DNA of 45,276 nucleotides. It comes from Rhodoferax sp. (GTDB lineage: Bacteria; Pseudomonadota; Gammaproteobacteria; Burkholderiales; Burkholderiaceae_C). The DNA is taken from positions 16,322-61,597 of the forward strand of contig NZ_JAQTWM010000010.1 of assembly GCF_028689305.1 (NCBI RefSeq). The letters run 5' to 3'. The first letter of the stretch is position 1, and every line of letters starts with the position of its first letter. Below the pieces are notes generated by a model. It was not told where the DNA came from, made no database searches, and saw only the letters and a list, made by a program, of their open reading frames with translations. The translations under genes were made by a program, and so were the position numbers. Of the stretch, positions 30,246-40,587 are shown one piece after another.

Positions 30246-30587
30246 ATGATCACTCAAATCCGCCCCTCCCAACTACCAGCCTGGCTTGAATCCGTGCGTG
30301 GTCACGGTAGTCCCGTGGTGTTGGATGTGCGTGAACCCGCTGAGCTGCAGATGGCCAGCATCAAGGCAGATGGATTTGAATTGATCACCATCCCGATGGG
30401 CGTGATACCTCCTCGGTTAGCTGAGCTGGACCCCAGTCAGCCGATTGCCTGCATCTGTCACCATGGTGGGCGCAGTATGCAAGTCGCGGCTTTTTTGAAG
30501 GCGCGTGGCTTTGACCACGTTGCCAATATCACCGGGGGTATCAACGCGTGGGCAGCGGAAGTCGATCCCACCGTGCCACGCTACTGA
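30246..30587 (+). CDS. Single-domain rhodanese
   Basis: The 113-residue protein is one rhodanese domain with PVVLDVREPAE, and an active-site loop CHHGGRSMQ (CxxGxRS type) with the catalytic Cys near residue 75. GFDHVANITGGINAWAAEVDP closes the fold. It would move sulfane sulfur to a thiol acceptor. I start it at the ATG at 30246, three bases after the methyltransferase stop; a longer frame from 30183 would overlap that gene. It sits between the pump and TolC genes of the efflux operon. Confidence 0.9.
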   Translation: MITQIRPSQLPAWLESVRGHGSPVVLDVREPAELQMASIKADGFELITIPMGVIPPRLAELDPSQPIACICHHGGRSMQVAAFLKARGFDHVANITGGINAWAAEVDPTVPRY

Positions 30588-30646
30588 CACTGCAAGCTGT
30601 TACGCCTCTTGATCTGTCTGTCATCTGCCCATTTTTCTGCCACATC

Positions 30647-31969
30647 ATGAATACTATGCGCCTATCCTCCCTCTCGCTGGCTCTCTCCGCCGCGCTGGCG
30701 CTACCCGCGCAGGCCCAAAGTCTGGTGGATTTGTACCAGGCGGCAAAAGCCTTTGATGCCAACTACCAGTCGGCCAAGTCACTGTACGAAGCCAATCTGG
30801 CCAAAGGTGAGCAGGCCCAAGCAGGGTTGTTGCCCAGTGCCAACCTGGCCATGGGAGTGAATCGCACCAACATCTCCAGCGATATGGCGACATTTGACCG
30901 CGGCAGTTACGGTAATCAGAGCGCCACACTGAGTGCATCACAACCGTTGTACCGACCTGCCAATAGGGCTACTGCGGAACAGGGGAAAAAGCAGGCAGAA
31001 CTGGCACAGGCTCAGTTGACAGCAGCAAGCCAGGATTTGATCGTACGTGTCAGCCAAGCCTACTTTGACGTACTGGCTTCCCAGGACAGCCTGAATTTTG
31101 TCAAATCGCAAAAGACGGCAGTGGCCGAACAATTGGCTTCAGCCAAGCGGAATTTTGAAGTCGGTACCGCCACCATTACCGACACACGTGAGGCGCAAGC
31201 TCGATATGACTTGGTACTGGCACAGGAAATCGCTGCAGACAACGATTTGCGCGTGAAGAAAATCGCCCTTGATCAACTGACCGGCAAAACGCCTTCCACC
31301 CCAAAGGCCATGCGGCTGCCAGTCAACCTGCCGGAAATCGCACCCAATAATGTGACACCGTGGGTGAACCAGTCAGAAGACATTCACCCTTCGGTTCAAC
31401 AAGCCCGTTTGGCATTGGAAGTCGCTCAACTGGAAACCCAGAAAGCCCAGGCAGGCAACAAGCCGACACTGGACTTGACCGGCAGCTACAACATCACAAA
31501 AAACAACGGAACCTCCAGCACAACGCTGGACTACCGCAACAATGTCGCAGCAGTGGGGCTGAGCTTTAACCTGCCGCTGTTTGCTGGCTACGCCATTCAG
31601 AACCGGATCAAAGAAACACTGGCACTCGAAGACAAATCACGGTCCGACTTGGAGGCCGCCAAGCGCGGTGTGGCGCAAGCCACTCGCAGCGCTTTTTTCG
31701 GTGTGCAATCCGGCCTGGGTCAAGTCAAGGCCTTGGAAGCGGCCGAAGCGTCCAGCCAAAGTGCACTGGATGCCACCAAGCTGGGTTATCAGGTTGGCGT
31801 GCGCATCAACATCGACGTGCTCAACTCCCAAAGCCTGCTGTTTGACACCAAGGCCAAGCTGGCCAAAGCACGCTACGACGTGCTGGTAGGCGGCTTGAAA
31901 CTGCGTCAGGCCAACGGCTCGCTCAAGGAAGATGACCTCGCAGCCATCAATGCGCTGCTGATCCCCTGA
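30647..31969 (+). CDS. tolC: TolC-family outer-membrane channel protein
   Basis: The 440-residue protein has a signal peptide (LSLALSAALALPAQAQS) and two outer-membrane-efflux repeats. The first begins LVDLYQAAKAFDANYQSAK; the second includes LGYQVGVRINIDVLNSQSLLFDTK, the conserved TolC repeat end. Long Ala/Gln-rich helices between them form the periplasmic tunnel. It lies 59 bases after the rhodanese gene and closes the efflux operon. A start at 30656 (MRLSSLSL) is equally possible. Confidence 0.93.
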   Translation: MNTMRLSSLSLALSAALALPAQAQSLVDLYQAAKAFDANYQSAKSLYEANLAKGEQAQAGLLPSANLAMGVNRTNISSDMATFDRGSYGNQSATLSASQPLYRPANRATAEQGKKQAELAQAQLTAASQDLIVRVSQAYFDVLASQDSLNFVKSQKTAVAEQLASAKRNFEVGTATITDTREAQARYDLVLAQEIAADNDLRVKKIALDQLTGKTPSTPKAMRLPVNLPEIAPNNVTPWVNQSEDIHPSVQQARLALEVAQLETQKAQAGNKPTLDLTGSYNITKNNGTSSTTLDYRNNVAAVGLSFNLPLFAGYAIQNRIKETLALEDKSRSDLEAAKRGVAQATRSAFFGVQSGLGQVKALEAAEASSQSALDATKLGYQVGVRINIDVLNSQSLLFDTKAKLAKARYDVLVGGLKLRQANGSLKEDDLAAINALLIP

Positions 31970-32123: not shown

Positions 32124-34136
32124 TCAGAGTGCCGTAAAGAACCCGATAGCCACCAGCGTCAATAATGTCAGCCCGATAACAATCAGCACAAATCCCAACA
32201 CCTTGGACGCAGCCAGCTTGCCAGGTGACGGAGCATCCACCAAGCGACTTTGTAGCTCACCACTATCCAGCAAGCGCTGGTATTCCAGCGGATGCTCATG
32301 CTTGAATTCCTCGACAGAGAAGGTTCCGGTGAACATCACCACCTCCAGCGGGAATTTGTCGGGCCGGAAATGGTTGTTAAAGAAGTGCACAGTGAACAGA
32401 AACACCACGGCAAGGAAGGCTTCTTCAGCGTGGAAGATCGCTGCCACGTTAAACACCCAGCCTGGCAGGAAGGCGCCGAAGAAGTTGGGCAGCCACATGA
32501 TCAAGCCACTCACACCAATGATGGTCACCCCCCAGAACGGCGCCCAATAATCAAACTTCTCCCAATAAGTCCAGCGATCAAATTTGGGCCGTGGACCCTT
32601 GCCAAAGAACCACTTGAACATCCCCAACATGTCTTGAGCATCTTTCAGATTGGGAACCATCGAATTCGGCCCAAAGAACTTGAAGTTCTTCCAGTCACGG
32701 ACGATGCGCCACCCCATATAGAACAGGTGCCAGAAGAACACACCGGCAAAAATGACCGCATTCACCCGGTGGATGGTGCCAGCAATGTGTGGTCCCCCCA
32801 AGGCGCTCATCAACGGTTGTGCCCACGGCGAGCTCGGGTAGAACAGTGGGATACCGGTCAGTGTCAGAATCATCAGACTCAAGGCAAAAGTGATGTGGGC
32901 CGCACGCCAGATCGGGCTGAAGCGCTGAATATGCTTGCCCGCAACGCCGACAGGCAGTGCATCAACCTTGATGTGCGGCAGGGTACTGCGCACCCTGCGT
33001 TCTTTCCATTCACGGTAGAACCACAACAAGGTGTGTAACCAGAAAAACGCAAACGTCCCCACCAGCAGTTGCACCATGATCTGCCAGGCGACCCAAATTT
33101 GCGGGTAACGCTTGAAGTCTCCGGCATGGCCATGCGGCTGGAAGGTGGCAAAACCCGCAGGTGCTTTGGCCAAGTCCTTCTTGCCACTGTGGCACGACTC
33201 GCAGGTCTTCAACCGGTTGTTGGCATGCACCATGGACTTGGGGTCATCGACCTTCAATATCTTGTGACTGCCATGGCAGTCATAACATTTGGCGGTGTAA
33301 GCGTAACCCAGCGTACTGATCTGACCATGATAAGTAGCCTTATAGGTCTTGAGATTTTCTTTGTGACAAGAGCCACAACTCTGCGTAACGGCCAGCTTGA
33401 AGGGGTCCACCGAAGAGTTGACGATGTCATGGACACCATGGCAGTCCGTGCAAACAGCAGCCTTGGCATTCTTCTTGTCCAGAACCTCCATACCGTGTAC
33501 GGAACCAGCATATGCCTCCAATTGATCCTCGTGGCAGCTTTGGCCACAGTTATTGGCAATGTTCAGACGCCACTGCGCATATTGAGGTGACTCTTTGGCC
33601 GGAACGTTGAAACTATGGGTGTCATGACAGTTGTCGCATGAAGCATTCGGCCGGGCCTTGTTGTCCTCACTGGGGCGGGCATGAAAGGACTGCTGGTAGG
33701 CTGTTATGTTTTTAGCCACAAATTCAAGTTTGGGTTTGTCCTTGGCGGTGCCCGCTTTTTGTACCTGCTCCCACAGCGTCTGATGACACCCCGCACAATC
33801 CACCTTGGCCAGCTTGAGTGCCGGATCTTTGCTGTGGGCATTGGCTTTTTCCGCGTTGTCTTTGATATCTGTATGGCAGGCCACACAGCTCATGCTAGCG
33901 TGCACGCTCTGCGCAAACTTGTCAGGAACCACGGCATGCATCTCACGCGGCCTGCCTTCAGCGCCGGCTATTTCCAGCTTGCCCTTTTTGCCATCATGGC
34001 AACTCAGGCAAGTGGCATTGTCCAGTTTGGTGCCAGCAGTTGCGGACGCTACATCGGCGGCCATAACCGGCACACTCAGGCAGGTGCCCAATAACCAGAC
34101 CAATCCACCCAGCAGATGAGAAGATGTCAATCGCAT
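32124..34136 (-). CDS. Nine-heme cytochrome c fused to a membrane cytochrome b (CbcL-like)
   Basis: A signal peptide (residues 1-26) leads into a periplasmic part with nine heme-binding motifs at residues 43, 84, 114, 167, 197, 229, 254, 284 and 312. Eight are CxxCH; the one at 197 is CGQSCH, with three residues between the Cys. From about residue 350 to the end follow several membrane helices of the cytochrome b561/formate dehydrogenase gamma type, with His in WLHTLLW, RAAHITFAL, GTIHRVNAV and FFWHLFYM for b hemes. The layout matches Geobacter CbcL, a menaquinone-linked reductase. Here it would exchange electrons between the quinone pool and periplasmic MtrA. The length is 670 residues. It is the last gene of the operon, 83 bases after the monoheme gene. 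Confidence 0.88.
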   Translation of the reverse strand: MRLTSSHLLGGLVWLLGTCLSVPVMAADVASATAGTKLDNATCLSCHDGKKGKLEIAGAEGRPREMHAVVPDKFAQSVHASMSCVACHTDIKDNAEKANAHSKDPALKLAKVDCAGCHQTLWEQVQKAGTAKDKPKLEFVAKNITAYQQSFHARPSEDNKARPNASCDNCHDTHSFNVPAKESPQYAQWRLNIANNCGQSCHEDQLEAYAGSVHGMEVLDKKNAKAAVCTDCHGVHDIVNSSVDPFKLAVTQSCGSCHKENLKTYKATYHGQISTLGYAYTAKCYDCHGSHKILKVDDPKSMVHANNRLKTCESCHSGKKDLAKAPAGFATFQPHGHAGDFKRYPQIWVAWQIMVQLLVGTFAFFWLHTLLWFYREWKERRVRSTLPHIKVDALPVGVAGKHIQRFSPIWRAAHITFALSLMILTLTGIPLFYPSSPWAQPLMSALGGPHIAGTIHRVNAVIFAGVFFWHLFYMGWRIVRDWKNFKFFGPNSMVPNLKDAQDMLGMFKWFFGKGPRPKFDRWTYWEKFDYWAPFWGVTIIGVSGLIMWLPNFFGAFLPGWVFNVAAIFHAEEAFLAVVFLFTVHFFNNHFRPDKFPLEVVMFTGTFSVEEFKHEHPLEYQRLLDSGELQSRLVDAPSPGKLAASKVLGFVLIVIGLTLLTLVAIGFFTAL

Positions 34137-34219
34137 GATGCGTTACCGTAAAACAAAAAGATATGGCCGCTATTCACAGGGAATGCGGCCAAGAGGTTGC
34201 GACATTCGGTACCGGCAAA

Positions 34220-34564
34220 TCACTGGGACAGAATCCAGTCGGCCAGGTTTTGCTGGACTTTCGGGTCCTTGCTGTCAAGCATCTTGTGTTCGACTTCCTT
34301 GCCGTCAGAGGTCTTGACCATACCGCCAGACGTGAAATTTTTGATGGCCTTGGCCTGACCATCAGGCTTGCCTTTGTATTTCTCAGCGATCTTTTTCAAT
34401 GATGGGCCTTTTTTGGCCTTATCCACGGCATGGCATTTTGTGCAGTCGTTGTCCTTGAACAAAGCCTGTGCCGCAGCAGCATCCACTGCCGCTTGAGCCG
34501 GTGTCAGGCTTGCGAGGGTCAATACAACAGCGCTACTGACGAGAGTGACGGATGATTTGAACAT
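34220..34564 (-). CDS. Monoheme class I cytochrome c
   Basis: The 114-residue protein starts at the ATG at 34564, preceded by AGGAG at nine bases. A signal peptide ends near AQAA. The single heme motif is CTKCH at residues 41-45, and a late Met (M95, or M82) would be the other axial ligand. The fold is like cytochrome c5/c-551. It sits between mtrB and the CbcL-like gene and probably shuttles electrons in the periplasm. It takes the position that MtoD has in the Sideroxydans mto cluster. Confidence 0.9.
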   Translation of the reverse strand: MFKSSVTLVSSAVVLTLASLTPAQAAVDAAAAQALFKDNDCTKCHAVDKAKKGPSLKKIAEKYKGKPDGQAKAIKNFTSGGMVKTSDGKEVEHKMLDSKDPKVQQNLADWILSQ

Positions 34565-34681
34565 TTGGAAGACTCCTGAAAAACATGCTGCACTCAGCAC
34601 ACAAAAACGAACCATCATGAATGGCAAGAAAAGACCTATTCACCCAAGGTGATACCAGGCCTTAGTCATATCAATCCCTGC

Positions 34682-37000
34682 CTAGAACTTGTAAATGTAA
34701 GACACCCCCAGGAAGGTGACAGATTGATCTGGATTCATGCCCACCGTGGTGTTGTCCTGGTACACGAACGCACGTCCGTTATTCGTCCATGACCATTCCC
34801 TGAGCTCAGCACGTTGGTGAATCAAGCTGAAGCGGATATCGGCATTTTTACGCAACGCATATTTGCCATACAGATTCAGAGTGGTACTCTGGTAGCTCAC
34901 GTCCGGCACACCGATGGCAGCTTGGGCCAGATTGGCGGCCGTCGGAGCAGTCCCCGTCACACCAGACGCAGCTCGCAGCCCGTATTTGGTAGTGTCATTG
35001 AGATAGGTCAGCTGCGCCCCCACCTCCAAATTGGAGGAAATGACACCCTTCACACCCAAACCGATACCATCACTGCGAGTTTCCAGATCCGCCATATAGC
35101 CGGTACTATGGTTGATTTTCTGGTTTTGTGTCCCTTGAGACAGGTAACCATTGATCTTCCATTTGTCCGTCACGGCAAAGCTGGCGTCCAGGCTGTATTG
35201 CCGGGTACTGGACTCCAGCCAGCCCTTTTGCCCGGCAACGGGATTGAATGCTGTGGCATTCTTGTCCTTGCCGTCTTCCACATTGAACTGCACTTCCACC
35301 TTGTCATTGGGCATCCAGTTGGCAGACAGCTTGATCTTGTCGCGATCAATATCCACCATGTTCATCGGGAAAGCATTACCGGCATTGAGCGCAATGAATT
35401 GGCTAGCCGAGCCAGTTTGGCCATAACCCAAGCCCGCTGCCACAAAAGCGGCACTGTTGCTCAGGCTGGTCCAGTCACCACCAGTGCGCTTGCTGTTGGA
35501 ATACCCGACCGAACCCGTGAGTGTTTCAGACATGCTGCGACGCAATTCCAGCCGATACCCCTTCTCGGTGTTTTTGGCACGCACAGCACCCAAGCCAGCC
35601 AGCTCTTCCTCGGTGATCGACACCGGAACCGGCCGGTCATACGAGCTGTAGTCCAGTCCAATCGTGCCACGCAGATCGACAGGCAGTTGGTAACTGGCCT
35701 CCAGCTTTCCGACTACCTTGGTCGATGACGCCAGATAGTTGTACCAAGACCGATTGACATAGGTCGCCGGCGTGGTGGCCGGGACCACCGCCCCGCCTTC
35801 CACGTTGTAGAGCGCTTCGGTGGAAGAATCCTTCTTGTCTTCATACCGTACATTGGCCAGCAGGCTCAATTTGGGCATGGGTCTGGCCGTCACGCCAAGC
35901 TGAACCAGCTTGGTGTCCACCACACCATTCAGGCTGGTGACCCCGGCAGGCGCATTGGTCAGCCCATTGGCCAGGAAATTGTCATCCTGCGTGGCATGGG
36001 TATAAGCCACCTTGAAATTGCCCTGGGTGGTTGGCGTAAACCGGTAATTGCCAGACACATAAAACTGGTGTGCCTGATTGTCGGGCTGCAAAGCGATTGG
36101 GGACTGCAGCACATTGCGCAAACTGGTACCACCCCCTGCAATATTGGTCGTGGCCGGAGCCAGGGTGCTGAGCACCCCCAGCGGATTATTCAGGCTGTTT
36201 GGCACGGCGGCCGTCATATTCCCGTTGGCATTGGTGAAAAACGAACCGTAATACCCGGCACTCACGCTAAATTTTTGATCGTGGTAATTCAACCGGGCTT
36301 CAATTTGCCGTGTGGTGGTATCCACCGGCTCGGGCAACAACAACAAGGCCCAGGTCTGATTGGTGGCGGTCTGCGTGTTGGTGCACACATAAGCCGCACA
36401 GGCGTAACCAACGCCGTAGGTGCGGGCCCCTGTCTTGGTCTCATTGCGAAACGCCACTTCAAACTGCAGGTTCTTGTTGAGCCATTTTTCGCCACTCAGA
36501 CCCAAACCAACCCGTTTGAGCTTGAGGTCATAGTCCTGCCCGGTACCCGGCGTTGCCAGACGCACCACCGAAGGTGTGGTCGACCCCAGGCCGACCATAC
36601 CCGTGTTGATGGTACGAATTTCATGATGCACCAACTCGGAATAGTCAGCCCCGAGCTTCCAGTTACCCTGATTTTCGTAGGAGACAGAAAGATCACGGTT
36701 GTCAAGGCCGAGGTTGTTGCCCTTGATGTAGAGCGAAGTGCCTGTGGCCTCATCACGCTTGTTGATGTCCAGATCCACCTGCAAGGTGGTGTCGTTGTCA
36801 CGCAGGCCGTTGTATTGGCCCATCAGTGAACGGTCCTTCTGGCTGCCACTCGAAGCCCCCACCCCCACGCTGATCGAGCTGGTGGGTTGGGTCAACTGAG
36901 CGATTTCAGCGTCATCCGCATACGCTGGTGCATAGGCGGCCAGAACGGCCAGAGCCAGAATTGATTTACTGAACCCAAAATACTGCTGACTGGTTTTCAT
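34682..37000 (-). CDS. mtrB: MtrB/PioB-family outer-membrane beta-barrel of the electron conduit
   Basis: The barrel wraps decaheme MtrA to carry electrons through the outer membrane. The product has a signal peptide ending at AYA and long runs of alternating polar and hydrophobic strand sequence, and it ends in SYIYKF with a terminal Phe, as outer-membrane barrels do. The 772-residue length suits the family (about 700-800). I prefer the ATG at 37000, with AAAGG nine bases upstream, over 37006. The N-terminal CxxC of Shewanella MtrB is absent; the only two Cys I see are at 201 and 206 (CAAYVC). It lies 15 bases after mtrA. Confidence 0.9.
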   Translation of the reverse strand: MKTSQQYFGFSKSILALAVLAAYAPAYADDAEIAQLTQPTSSISVGVGASSGSQKDRSLMGQYNGLRDNDTTLQVDLDINKRDEATGTSLYIKGNNLGLDNRDLSVSYENQGNWKLGADYSELVHHEIRTINTGMVGLGSTTPSVVRLATPGTGQDYDLKLKRVGLGLSGEKWLNKNLQFEVAFRNETKTGARTYGVGYACAAYVCTNTQTATNQTWALLLLPEPVDTTTRQIEARLNYHDQKFSVSAGYYGSFFTNANGNMTAAVPNSLNNPLGVLSTLAPATTNIAGGGTSLRNVLQSPIALQPDNQAHQFYVSGNYRFTPTTQGNFKVAYTHATQDDNFLANGLTNAPAGVTSLNGVVDTKLVQLGVTARPMPKLSLLANVRYEDKKDSSTEALYNVEGGAVVPATTPATYVNRSWYNYLASSTKVVGKLEASYQLPVDLRGTIGLDYSSYDRPVPVSITEEELAGLGAVRAKNTEKGYRLELRRSMSETLTGSVGYSNSKRTGGDWTSLSNSAAFVAAGLGYGQTGSASQFIALNAGNAFPMNMVDIDRDKIKLSANWMPNDKVEVQFNVEDGKDKNATAFNPVAGQKGWLESSTRQYSLDASFAVTDKWKINGYLSQGTQNQKINHSTGYMADLETRSDGIGLGVKGVISSNLEVGAQLTYLNDTTKYGLRAASGVTGTAPTAANLAQAAIGVPDVSYQSTTLNLYGKYALRKNADIRFSLIHQRAELREWSWTNNGRAFVYQDNTTVGMNPDQSVTFLGVSYIYKF

Positions 37001-37015
37001 GATCATCAGCCTTTC

Positions 37016-38056
37016 TCAACGGAAGTTGAACTGGGGAGTCGGGTTGGTCGCGGCAGGGTTGTTGGTGCCATGAACCTGCGTGTGGCAATTCATGCAACTA
37101 CGCCCCTGGGTCAAATTGGTCGTGCTCTTGCCCGACTGGGTTGCCGTGTTGGGTACGGCCTGAGCACCCAGCAACTGCGGGATAAATCCGCCGTGTGGGG
37201 TATGACACTGATGGCACAGGAAAGGTGCACGCACTTTCAGCAGATTTTCAACCACCGTCCCATGCGGGTTGTGGCAATTACCGCAGTCTTCACTGACCGG
37301 CTCATGGTTGTGCACAAACGGGCCACGTTTTTCCATGTGACAGGTGTAGCAGGTCTCCACCACGCTGTCACGTTTCATGAGCTTGGGACCCACCGAGCCA
37401 TGCGAGGCGTGGCAATCCGAACAACCCATCTTGCCTTCAGGCACCGGATGGCGCGAAGGTTTGCTCATTTGGACACGCTGCTCCTTGTGGCAGCTGTAGC
37501 AAACCTCGGGCTGGGTCTTCTTGTCACGCACCTTGTCATTGGCGGTGTGAATCTGATGACACGACGTGCAGGCCACGTCCTTGGTCTGGTGGGCGCTGCC
37601 CTCCCAATGGGAACGCTTGGCATCACTCTGGTGGCAGCTCAGACAGGCCTGGTTTTTTGTCGCTGCCGGAGTGGTCGACCCCTTGGTGAACTGGTTATCA
37701 GCCTTGGGCGGTTTGCCGCTGCCGCTGTAATTCAGGTGCTTCTCGCTGGCACCATGACAGTCGGTGCAGGTGGGCGTGCGTCCATCCGCCTTGACACCAT
37801 GCCGGGTCTTACCGATCGCCAGTACCGATGGGTGCAAGTCCAGCATCGTGGGCACTTTGTCGTCCGTCTCATCATGGCAACCTGTGCATTTGGCGTCGCC
37901 CTTCAGGATCAGATCCTTTGGTGCCGCCGCAGCCGTGGCTGGCGCCGCCTTGACCACATCTGCGGCGAAGCCAGAACCCGCCGCCAGCGCCGCACCCAAC
38001 ACAGCGCCCTTGAGGGCTGTCCAGAACAGCCTTCTGATTTCAGCATGATGTTTCAT
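37016..38056 (-). CDS. mtrA: MtrA/MtoA-type periplasmic decaheme cytochrome c
   Basis: The 346-residue protein has a signal peptide ending near GFAA and ten CxxCH motifs at residues 57, 97, 138, 163, 186, 212, 236, 258, 281 and 321. The spacing of two five-heme halves fits the MtrA/MtoA/PioA family; Shewanella MtrA has 333 residues, so this is normal length without the PioA extension. It is the wire inside the MtrB barrel. I start at the ATG at 38056, with AAAGGG seven bases upstream. It is the first gene of the operon, with a perfect FNR box about 100 bases upstream. Confidence 0.93.
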   Translation of the reverse strand: MKHHAEIRRLFWTALKGAVLGAALAAGSGFAADVVKAAPATAAAAPKDLILKGDAKCTGCHDETDDKVPTMLDLHPSVLAIGKTRHGVKADGRTPTCTDCHGASEKHLNYSGSGKPPKADNQFTKGSTTPAATKNQACLSCHQSDAKRSHWEGSAHQTKDVACTSCHQIHTANDKVRDKKTQPEVCYSCHKEQRVQMSKPSRHPVPEGKMGCSDCHASHGSVGPKLMKRDSVVETCYTCHMEKRGPFVHNHEPVSEDCGNCHNPHGTVVENLLKVRAPFLCHQCHTPHGGFIPQLLGAQAVPNTATQSGKSTTNLTQGRSCMNCHTQVHGTNNPAATNPTPQFNFR

Positions 38057-38125
38057 AAACAAACCCTTTACATTGGCTTTACAAGGAGAACTGGCGCGAT
38101 GTTAATTCCGCACCCGTCTTGTGGG

Positions 38126-38257: not shown

Positions 38258-39577
38258 TCAAAAGCCGACAAGATAGTGATTCAAGGCAGCGGCTTGACGA
38301 ATGGCGGCCCCTTGATGTGCTTGCGCAAATTGCCCTGCTGCCAAGCGGGTCTTTGACAATTCATCGTTGTCAAATGGCAACGCACTGGCGACGGTCACCG
38401 CCTGCTGCAAATTGATGGTGCGCAGTGCGGCGCCAGCGGCCAGCGCCTGCTCGGCAGCCTCGGCAAAGTTGAAGGTGTGTGGCCCCATCACCACCGGACA
38501 GCCACAGGCCGCCGCTTCGATCAGGTTCTGGCCCCCCAAGGGCTCGAAACTGCCGCCCAGCAGGGCTACATCTGCCAGACCGTAATACAACGCCATTTCA
38601 CCCAAAGAATCCCCCAACCAGATCGTTGGCCCCTGGGGCATCGCACCAGGTCCCTCTGGCGACCATTGGCAGCGCCGTGATACGGCAAAACCCTGCGACT
38701 GAATCAGCTCAGCCACCGCCTCAAAACGCTGCGGATGCCGCGGCACAATCAGCCACAAGACTTGGTTTACTATAGATTTTGTAGCAACCAAAGGTTGATT
38801 CATGTCGGCTAGAGGCCAAAATTCCTTCAAAATTTGCAACAGGGCCAGTTCCTCCCCCTCACGCGAGCTGGCCAACATCACCACCGGTCTGCCCACACCC
38901 AGACGCCATTGGCGCCCCAGGGCCAGCTGAGTCTGATCGGGCGTTGCATCAAATTTGAGGTTGCCCAGCACCCCACGCACTGGTGCGCCCAGTTGGGTCA
39001 ACCGCTCGGCGTCCGCTGCGGTCTGCGCCCAGACTGCGGCCAGCCCGGCATAAGCTGGCCGCGCCAGCCAGGCCAGCCGCTGCGCCTGTCGCAACGACTT
39101 GTCACTCAAACGGGCGTTGACCAGCACCAGCGGTACACCCTGACGGCGACACAAATGAACCAGGTTGGGCCAGATTTCGGTTTCCATCAGCACCCCCAGA
39201 TCCGGCTGGAAGTGCGCCAGAAAACGCTGCGCGGCACCGGGTGCATCCCAAGGCTGCCAAGTCTGCAGATCCCCGGGCTGCAGTAGCTTCTGCCCTTCAG
39301 CGCGCCCGGTGGCCGTCCCGTGGGTCAACAACAGCCGCATGCTTGGCCATTGGGCGCGCAAGGCCGCAATCAACACCGCCGCCGCCCGGGTTTCGCCCAA
39401 GGACACGGCGTGCACCCACACCGTTGGCCCGTTGTGTGGCGCCACCGCTTGGGTGTAATGGCCAAAACGCTCGTCGATGGCATGCAGGTAACCGGCCTCC
39501 TGCGCGCCACGGCGGCACAGCTTGCGCCGCAGCAGTGGCTGCGCCAGCCACATCAGCAGGGAATACAGCCAGCGCAT
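38258..39577 (-). CDS. waaA: 3-deoxy-D-manno-octulosonic acid (Kdo) transferase
   Basis: The enzyme adds Kdo from CMP-Kdo to the lipid A precursor at the inner membrane. The 439-residue protein starts MRWLYSLLMWL at 39577 with a membrane anchor, then VWVHAVSLGETRAA, LMETEIWPNL with the catalytic Glu region, and the C-terminal FEPLGGQNLIEAAACGCPVVMGPH typical of GT30. Residues about 253-271 (including EFWPLADMNQ) are encoded by an in-frame copy of the dispersed repeat, in the loop before LIVPRHPQRF. The gene overlaps waaC by one base. An upstream frame to 39697 lacks family support. Confidence 0.93.
   Translation of the reverse strand: MRWLYSLLMWLAQPLLRRKLCRRGAQEAGYLHAIDERFGHYTQAVAPHNGPTVWVHAVSLGETRAAAVLIAALRAQWPSMRLLLTHGTATGRAEGQKLLQPGDLQTWQPWDAPGAAQRFLAHFQPDLGVLMETEIWPNLVHLCRRQGVPLVLVNARLSDKSLRQAQRLAWLARPAYAGLAAVWAQTAADAERLTQLGAPVRGVLGNLKFDATPDQTQLALGRQWRLGVGRPVVMLASSREGEELALLQILKEFWPLADMNQPLVATKSIVNQVLWLIVPRHPQRFEAVAELIQSQGFAVSRRCQWSPEGPGAMPQGPTIWLGDSLGEMALYYGLADVALLGGSFEPLGGQNLIEAAACGCPVVMGPHTFNFAEAAEQALAAGAALRTINLQQAVTVASALPFDNDELSKTRLAAGQFAQAHQGAAIRQAAALNHYLVGF
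38769..38821 (-). repeat. Dispersed repeat, copy D, in frame inside waaA
   Basis: On the minus strand the copy begins TTTTGGCCTCTAGCC, identical over the first 15 bases to copy B, and ends in ATCTATAGTAAA. It is read in frame as part of WaaA and adds about 18 residues. Confidence 0.8.
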
Positions 39578-40587
39578 CACGGCGAACGGAGCGTGGCCGA
39601 CACGGACAGCCATGCCTGCCAGACCGCCTCTACCGACGGCGCAGGCTGGGCAAACACACTGCATTGCCGCGTCCCGGCCAGTGGTCCGGTCCGCCAAGCG
39701 GTGTCAAAGTTGTAAAGCTGCACATGCGGCAAGTCCAGCGCCACCGCGATGTGGCTCAGGCCACTGTCCACCCCGATCACACCGGCGCAGGTCGCCAGGG
39801 CATCCGTCAGTGCATCCAGTGCCAGCATCGGCCAGACCTGGACATGGTGCAACCCTTGCGCCAACGCCAAAGCGGCCTGCTCCTCAGCCGCATTGCCGTG
39901 CGGCAGAGCCACACCGTAACCGGCCTCATCCAAGCGCTTGGCCAAGGCACGCCAGTGGTCCAGCGGCCATTGTTTGTCAGCCCGGGAAGTCCCATGCACC
40001 AGGGCCACCACCCCTTTCAGGCCGGTCCTGAATGCTACGTTTTTCATAGCATCAGGTGCTTGTTCCATGTGGGCCAGAAGGCCAAAATGCATCAAGGAAG
40101 GCAGGTGGTAACCCAGTGCTGCAGCACACAGTGCGCGAGAACGTGTCACCGCATGGCTGTGCGCTGGCATGGGCAGCGCCACATCAGCCACCCAGCGCGC
40201 CGGTGCCTCGAAGCTGGAGCCTTCGGTCTGGTTGGCCAGGCCGTAACGCCGGCCATCCGGGTTCAAAGACGCCAGCCACGACACCAGCGCCGATTTGCTC
40301 AAGCCCTGCAAATCAATCACCGCGTCATAAGACACCTGCTGCAGTTCGGCCTTGAACAGTTGCCAGGCCTGGCGGGTGTCGCGGCTGAACATGGCCTTGC
40401 GCCAGCGCCGCAGATCGCAGGCGATCACCCGGTGCACGCCTGCACAACGGCGCACCAGCGGAGCAAACCCGCGCTCCACCACCCAGTCGATCTGCGCGTC
40501 GGGCAAGGCCCGGCGAATGTCTTGCACCGCCGGCATGGCATGCACCACGTCGCCAAGCGAAGACAGCTTGACGATCAGGATCTTCAA
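39577..40587 (-). CDS. waaC: Lipopolysaccharide heptosyltransferase I
   Basis: The enzyme adds the first heptose to Kdo in the LPS inner core. The 336-residue protein starts MKILIVKLSSLGDVVHAMPA, has DAVIDLQGLSKSAL, HGTSRADKQWP and GVDSGLSHIAVAL, all GT9 heptosyltransferase marks. Residues about 167-184 (FGLLAHMEQAPDAMKNVA) are encoded by a copy of the dispersed repeat, in the linker between the two domains. The start overlaps the stop of the phosphohexomutase gene by ATGA, and the stop overlaps waaA by one base, so the three genes are co-translated. Confidence 0.93.
   Translation of the reverse strand: MKILIVKLSSLGDVVHAMPAVQDIRRALPDAQIDWVVERGFAPLVRRCAGVHRVIACDLRRWRKAMFSRDTRQAWQLFKAELQQVSYDAVIDLQGLSKSALVSWLASLNPDGRRYGLANQTEGSSFEAPARWVADVALPMPAHSHAVTRSRALCAAALGYHLPSLMHFGLLAHMEQAPDAMKNVAFRTGLKGVVALVHGTSRADKQWPLDHWRALAKRLDEAGYGVALPHGNAAEEQAALALAQGLHHVQVWPMLALDALTDALATCAGVIGVDSGLSHIAVALDLPHVQLYNFDTAWRTGPLAGTRQCSVFAQPAPSVEAVWQAWLSVSATLRSP
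40034..40087 (-). repeat. Dispersed repeat, copy E, in frame inside waaC
   Basis: On the minus strand it reads TTTTGGCCTTCTGGCCCACA and ends near TAGC. It is more diverged than the other copies: an extra T shifts and then restores the frame match with copy D. Both coding copies give the peptide pattern LA-x-M-x-Q. Confidence 0.65.

Follow-up and report, generated by a model that had tools for sequence, protein, structure and literature searches.

A Rhodoferax operon joining MtrAB to a nonaheme cytochrome c/cytochrome b fusion: a probable Mto-type electron conduit with an exchangeable quinone module

Introduction

Several described gene clusters place a nonaheme inner-membrane cytochrome beside an MtrAB-type outer-membrane conduit. 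In Gallionella ES-2, the monoheme MtoD relays electrons from MtoA to the nonaheme inner-membrane MtoC of the mto operon, and Dechloromonas has a similar mtoABCD operon (PMC5566968). A 2018 survey named the CbcL/MtrH/MtoC family, counted 138 members and listed further species that carry mtrH or mtoC beside mtrAB or mtoAB, with Rhodoferax ferrireducens having mtrH together with cymA and mtrABC; the family occurs in Fe(III) reducers and in Fe(II) oxidisers, with no feature that tells them apart (PMC6295460). mtoC and mtoD are also among the genes clustered with mtrCAB, as possible passengers, in an evolution termed modular (PMC8805035), and MtoA and MtrA may be interchangeable (PMC10734462). Within Rhodoferax, the cultivated strain MIZ03 oxidises and reduces iron and has mtrABC, the genes responsible being unknown there (PMC8552755).

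In this work we analysed a window (the whole stretch of DNA under study, 45,276 nucleotides) from Rhodoferax sp., assembly GCF_028689305.1, in which one minus-strand operon encodes MtrA, MtrB, a monoheme cytochrome c and a nine-heme c/cytochrome b fusion. This operon belongs to the mtoABDC kind. We propose, with a probability of about 0.8, that it is an Mto-type electron conduit whose quinone module acts as an exchangeable plug in this lineage. The gene content, the profile family membership, the conservation of hemes and histidines, the exchange of partners and the variation of the chromosomal slot are shown here. A preliminary description had presented the pairing of an MtrAB conduit with a CbcL-type module in place of CymA; the pairing is correct, but it was already known, having been published as mtoABCD (PMC5566968, PMC6295460).

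Results

Gene content of the operon

The four genes, which agree in kind and position with those of the preliminary description, are as follows.

37016..38056, minus strand: mtrA/mtoA, ten-heme periplasmic/outer-membrane cytochrome (10 CXXCH; TIGR03508)
34682..37006, minus strand: mtrB/mtoB, MtrB/PioB outer-membrane barrel (PF11854, E 3.5e-117; TIGR03509)
34220..34564, minus strand: mtoD-like monoheme cytochrome c, 114 amino acids (aa) (PF00034 over cut-off)
32124..34136, minus strand: mtoC/mtrH/cbcL-type fusion, 670 residues (heme motifs, FdnI match, model)

Their order is thus MtrA, MtrB, monoheme, fusion (A-B-D-C), with gaps of 9, 54 and 83 bp between the longest open reading frames (ORFs). 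The mtrA ATG is at 38056, the longest ORF starting with a TTG at 38062. The longest ORF of the monoheme gene reaches 34627; the 114-aa start was picked by comparison with homologues, which adjoin other fusions, and with this likelier ATG the upstream gap is 117 bp instead of 54. MtrA scores 267.5 bits against the NCBIfam DmsE/MtrA family TIGR03508 (cut-off 192.2), MtrB scores 393 against Pfam PF11854 (cut-off 23) and 350.6 against NCBIfam TIGR03509 (cut-off 240), and the monoheme cytochrome c, located between mtrB and the fusion, is above the cut-off of PF00034. Chance ORFs are rejected, since these three proteins exceed curated cut-offs and the heme and histidine ligands of the fusion are conserved. 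The operon therefore holds the components of an mtoABDC cluster: a decaheme MtoA together with an MtoB barrel, an MtoD-like monoheme gene, and a nonaheme MtoC-type gene that occupies, as the preliminary description had it, the place of CymA in the Sideroxydans mto cluster. No NapC/NirT-type CymA, the component on which a CymA-dependent pathway relies, was found within the operon.

The GC content of the operon (54.9%) is close to that of the neighbouring tolC (56.1%), so that composition is uninformative on transfer and was dropped as a sign of it. A promoter scan was not above shuffles (one found, shuffled mean 3.5) and no promoter is therefore claimed, while a terminator scan was mildly above them (12 vs 7.1).

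The fusion protein

The fusion carries eight CXXCH motifs and one CXXXCH at residue 197, and 99% or more of 82 aligned homologues keep each of these nine motifs. The nine c hemes lie in residues 43–316 and are followed by an FdnI-type diheme cytochrome b domain (about residues 401–620) and a last helix. The b domain of the window protein has no Pfam match, and the score of the fusion against the NCBIfam formate dehydrogenase gamma profile (37.3) is far under the cut-off of 115.9. By sequence, this domain matches FdnI, the cytochrome b556 subunit of Escherichia coli formate dehydrogenase-N (E 0.00058), and in a fold search FdnI was the sole solved structure at E <0.001 for an AlphaFold2 model of the fusion (template modelling score 0.75 over target, probability 1.00, E 5.1e-4). 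His414, 456, 569 and 584, invariant in the 82 aligned rows, align with FdnI His18, 57, 155 and 169, which we take to be the ligands of the two b hemes of FdnI. The model (mean predicted local distance difference test score 78.7) has six long helices, which would fit six membrane spans; hydropathy alone is less clear on these spans. The fusion thus shows the marks of the CbcL/MtrH/MtoC family: several N-terminal CX2CH motifs (3–23 reported), about six C-terminal membrane spans as predicted by the model, and a HydC/FdnI-like b domain with conserved histidines, recognised by sequence and fold and not by family profiles. The CbcL-type build first proposed for it, nine c hemes plus an FdnI-like b domain, is therefore borne out by sequence and fold. 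A grouping with nitrate- or tetrathionate-type reductases was to speak against it, and none of the profile, sequence and fold searches gave such a grouping.

A genome scan with the fusion confirmed at least 587 relatives, of which the best 80 were kept. These best 80 are mostly titled betaproteobacteria, with a few gammaproteobacteria or just Proteobacteria, so that nothing suggests a transplant from Geobacter, whose CbcL was likened to the fusion by description; such an origin was considered and rejected. The scan recovered a Gallionella locus (L117; fusion, monoheme, MtrA, MtrB) whose fusion is 54.6% identical to that of the window. A plasmid search with the fusion gave no match.

Three fusion copies with three partners

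The genome, a 3.83-Mb draft in 187 contigs that is 86.5% complete, with the window on contig C2, has three fusion genes: the window copy, a 77–78% identical copy and a 61–62% identical copy. Their partners are, respectively, MtrAB, an ArrA-like arsenate-reductase operon and a 446-aa cytochrome with four heme motifs, which precedes the third copy together with a monoheme cytochrome. The second copy lies partly on contig C168 and partly on C38, the two contig ends having exactly 127 bases in common; upstream of it are an ArrA-like molybdoenzyme, an iron-sulphur subunit, a TorD-like chaperone and a monoheme cytochrome, and downstream is mobB. At locus L056 the fusion and mobB likewise come after an ArrA-like operon, an order which supports C38 continuing the arr operon of C168. 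In the ArrA-like operon of genome G034, torD is followed directly by mobB, without a fusion between them, and G033 has the same torD-mobB order, followed up to the contig end.

The best solved match of the ArrA-like enzyme is ArrA (6cz7, E 3.6e-275); as its score against the NCBIfam ArrA equivalog, 1041 bits, is under the cut-off of 1600, we name it ArrA-like only. It carries MRGRYSPTS, hence the (R/K)GRY motif that marks ArrA and not the GRGWG that marks ArxA (PMC6549141), and an identity as an ArxA arsenite oxidase, prompted by arxXSR-like regulators, was rejected on this ground. Given a close fusion paralogue in an ArrA-like operon, extracellular electron transfer (EET) is probably not the sole task of this type of fusion. 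Literature on CbcL with arsenate and arrA, and on Rhodoferax with mtrB and arrA, may bear on this arsenate link; in the openly licensed literature, nothing was found treating arxA, MtrB, cytochrome b and multiheme together.

The regulators just mentioned, a divergent periplasmic binding protein, a histidine kinase and a response regulator, lie with the ArrA-like operon on contig C168 (L010, 7600–16148) in an arxXSR/arrXSR layout. An ArxX/ArrX-like periplasmic sensor homologue is also found divergent beside MtrAB-fusion clusters at L091, L097 and L117, with no ArrA-type match in the sequence examined, and it may serve EET clusters by sensing metals or oxyanions. Molybdoenzymes that lack both the ArrA and the ArxA motif in the sequence examined lie beside the fusion at L056, L084, L100 (a partial gene) and L108.

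Among the best 80 fusion loci, 26 have MtrB and 9 an ArrA-type protein no more than 8.5 kb from the fusion, 51 have a monoheme gene within 600 bp, and 10, in which one or both flanks are short, show none of the partner classes sought; a 'decahemeOM' neighbour class was left unused because it was polluted by fusions of more than 700 aa. Two other neighbours recur. A FrdA-type fumarate reductase, identified by a short signature, is within 8.5 kb in 12 of the 80 loci (L041, L043, L044, L047, L048, L049, L050, L053, L055, L057, L058 and L060), perhaps marking a second favoured site or another fusion partner. An ORF of 437–462 aa, which has a single heme motif and is conserved at its N-terminus, lies within a few kb upstream of the fusion at L059, L069, L092 and L115.

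Exchange of partners

In a tree of 31 chosen fusion rows, three of them added from genomes G003, G008 and G010, the window fusion falls within a 9-row set (support 98/94), to which all four ArrA-linked rows of the tree also belong. The ArrA-linked fusion of our genome is sister (100/100), with 91.9% identity, to that of G010, a single-contig genome of the same genus in which the fusion comes directly after MtrC, MtrA and MtrB. Such closeness between an ArrA-linked and an MtrCAB-linked copy shows that fusion partners were exchanged recently. Grouping the four Arr-linked rows as a clade against eleven Mtr-linked rows was rejected by the approximately unbiased (AU) test (p-AU 3.7e-81); in both AU tests of this work the groups were named after earlier trees had been seen. 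On a quick tree of 83 rows, the 44 rows with a partner label need 8 partner-label changes, the remaining 39 being outside this count. Labels denote an MtrB, ArrA or cyt446 match within 8.5 kb, so that L061 and L063, in which MtrB is further off, are classed as 'other', and the Arr label of L072 rests on a weak, motif-less molybdoenzyme match.

The waaA-tolC slot across the genus

The operon sits between two convergent genes.

38258..39697, minus strand: waaA (Kdo transferase), slot border upstream of the operon (PF04413, E 1.2e-62; border kept in same-genus genomes)
30548..31969, plus strand: tolC-type outer-membrane efflux protein, the other slot border (PF02321, E 2.4e-50; convergent with waaA)

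A waaA search of 60 genomes, our own included, matched 57, and 30 loci were read with their flanks, all from this genus and many fragmented. The slot is empty in 20 of these 30, waaA facing tolC at about 85–390 bp by match ends; it holds EET cytochromes in 8, holds other sequence in G020, and G030 ends there. The eight occupied slots are the following.

G000 (the window): MtrA-MtrB-monoheme-fusion
G023: MtrA-MtrB-monoheme, then contig end; its sole fusion match at E 1e-60 is on another contig
G010: monoheme-MtrC-MtrA-MtrB-fusion
G002: nine-heme c, separate cytochrome b561-type protein, monoheme, MtrC, MtrA, MtrB, second MtrC
G022: as G002 up to MtrB, except that an 867-aa ten-heme protein stands where G002 has MtrC
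G011: start as G002, cut off by the contig end within the multiheme gene that follows
G005: MtrA-MtrB-NapC, oriented the other way, and upstream a monoheme match (46%)
G003: MtrA-MtrB, no quinone module seen, no monoheme match

The quinone module is therefore fused c/b in two slots, a nine-heme c with a separate cytochrome b in three, a NapC/CymA-type tetraheme in one and not seen in one, the last slot meeting a contig end. The split nine-heme proteins are 22–31% identical to the c domain of the window fusion (E 3e-9 to 2e-16) and lack the b domain. In the G003 slot, a XRE-type regulator ORF and a further ORF, whose frame is uncertain, lie between waaA and MtrA (L170, 5964–7455).

One clade for the slot MtrBs (seven slots have MtrB, G011 giving no row because of its contig end) was rejected (p-AU 0.0005). 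Slot location requires 5 changes on the MtrB tree, all 5 forced by starred branches, against a shuffled mean of 6.5 (36/500 as low); six long, partial or odd rows (L077, L077_2, L106, L063, L089 and L096) were removed from this tree, and its 'elsewhere' rows are the 4 that entered out of 11 same-genus loci tried. On a waaC+waaA tree, the 28 genomes labelled as having an EET-occupied or an empty slot require 5 changes, and G010 and G023 are sisters (100/99), with MtrB proteins respectively 39% and 87% identical to that of the window. The openly licensed literature yielded nothing treating waaA, tolC, mtrB and extracellular electron transfer together.

Surface cytochromes, quinone type and direction

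In our genome, at its 86.5% completeness, no TIGR03507 (OmcA/MtrC) match was found at E 1e-3, unlike what a Shewanella-type MtrCAB system would show; the complete route to the surface that had been claimed is accordingly unproved. That the operon needs no CymA holds for the operon itself, but the genome has a single NapC-family tetraheme match, on contig C41 between two monoheme cytochromes (L013, 7366–8853). No MenB was found over cut-off in the genome (14 weaker matches) and no match to MqnA, while RuBisCO is present. RuBisCO, with no MtrC, no MenB over cut-off and no MqnA found, fits a role linked to ubiquinone and either on the Fe(II) side or reversible, and the conduit probably works inward or reversibly; its function would be two-way EET, probably on the Fe(II) side.

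Discussion

Protein families and gene position point to an electron path, a quinone reaction, a direction and a use of partners. The fusion would exchange electrons with the membrane quinone via its two b hemes and conduct them through its nine c hemes in the periplasm. Between the fusion and MtrA they would be shuttled by the monoheme protein, and MtrA inside MtrB would take them across the outer membrane. The same fusion type occurs beside an arsenate-reductase-like enzyme, and in different species the waaA-tolC slot holds MtrAB with fused, split or CymA-type modules.

Several observations weigh against a conduit with an exchangeable quinone module. Partners are not freely exchanged: labels are clustered on the 83-row tree (27 changes for five labels vs 41.2 when shuffled; 0/200 as low) and on the 31-row tree (12 changes vs 14.9 on shuffles; 10/200 as low). 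Between the arr copy of our genome and G010, the monoheme proteins are 64.0% identical and the fusions 91.9%, so that the clearest exchange involved the fusion without the monoheme gene, and a fixed monoheme and fusion unit always moving together is unsupported. The arr operon spans two contigs joined only by the exact 127-base overlap, and the G003 slot has MtrAB without a visible quinone module. No MtrC-like surface cytochrome was found through which the conduit would meet its substrate, and the absences in the genome are weak because of its incompleteness and its 187 contigs.

A wider proposal, which we put forward tentatively and at slightly less than even odds, is that quinone modules are interchangeable in this genus: the slot would repeatedly receive MtrAB plus a monoheme gene, fused, split and CymA-type modules would be swapped, and arsenate-reductase-like operons would borrow the fused type. 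The common adaptor would be the monoheme protein, because a monoheme match occurs in seven of the eight occupied slots, being absent from G003 and only 46% identical in G005.

It is rather unlikely that the operon carries electrons outward only, reducing Fe(III) or humics in the manner of mtrABC-mtrH of R. ferrireducens. The same-genus genome G010 does have the fusion next to MtrCAB in the same slot, the family is found on both sides of iron metabolism with no distinguishing feature (PMC6295460), and MtoA may be interchangeable with MtrA (PMC10734462); however, no OmcA/MtrC homologue was found in the genome, and the window MtrB groups with loci such as L043 and L083, which have no further ten-heme surface-type protein in the sequence examined, and not with the MtrCAB clade. 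Much less probable still is that the window fusion is an arsenic-respiration module merely lying beside MtrAB. The 9-row set is the smallest well-supported one containing this fusion and includes every ArrA-linked row, and the genome has a second, ArrA-linked copy; yet the window fusion is co-directional with mtrAB with short gaps, MtrB is nearby in 26 of the best 80 fusion loci, and the arr operon already owns a copy. Finally, most genomes are fragmented and three of the eight occupied slots (G011, G022 and G023) are visible from the waaA side only, to a contig end, but we consider it highly improbable that the slot variety is an assembly artefact or plain vertical descent with divergence, given that G000, G002, G003, G005 and G010 (the last a single contig) each have the two borders on the same contig, that the slot MtrBs do not form one clade, that the sisters G010 and G023 hold such different MtrBs and that the G005 cargo is reversed.

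In conclusion, the exchangeable-module conduit is the reading we retain, and the slot amounts to a natural swap experiment, in which closely related species keep the same type of outer-membrane conduit at one site and connect it to different quinone modules. These swaps make it testable whether extracellular electron transfer owes its direction or its redox window to the quinone module; the 2018 survey left this question open, having found no feature that separates oxidising from reducing members (PMC6295460). The operon itself is a further member of a published family.

Comparison with known systems

The window operon shares the MtrA and MtrB families with the Shewanella MtrCAB plus CymA system but, in contrast with it, contains neither MtrC nor CymA. 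Shewanella CymA serves several reductases, as these fusion paralogues seem to. Geobacter CbcL resembles the window fusion, by description, in having nine c hemes and a FdnI/HydC-like diheme b domain. It works with other porin complexes. Its published identity to MtrH/MtoC is about 35% (PMC6295460). Sideroxydans lithotrophicus ES-1 (mtoAB-mtoD-cymA) has, like the window, MtoAB and a monoheme shuttle, but its quinone module is a CymA-type tetraheme whereas that of the window is the fusion (PMC5566968, PMC8805035); the MtrA-MtrB-NapC slot of G005 resembles this kind. R. ferrireducens, of the same genus, combines MtrAB with the same fusion family (MtrH), and its mtrABC-cymA-mtrH cluster adds MtrC and two CymA, which the window operon lacks (PMC6295460). 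In Gallionella capsiferriformans ES-2 and Dechloromonas aromatica RCB, MtoA, MtoB, the monoheme MtoD and the nonaheme inner-membrane MtoC are clustered as in the window (PMC5566968, PMC6295460); the window operon differs from these clusters in its host genus, and in that the nearest kin of its fusion include ArrA-linked paralogues.

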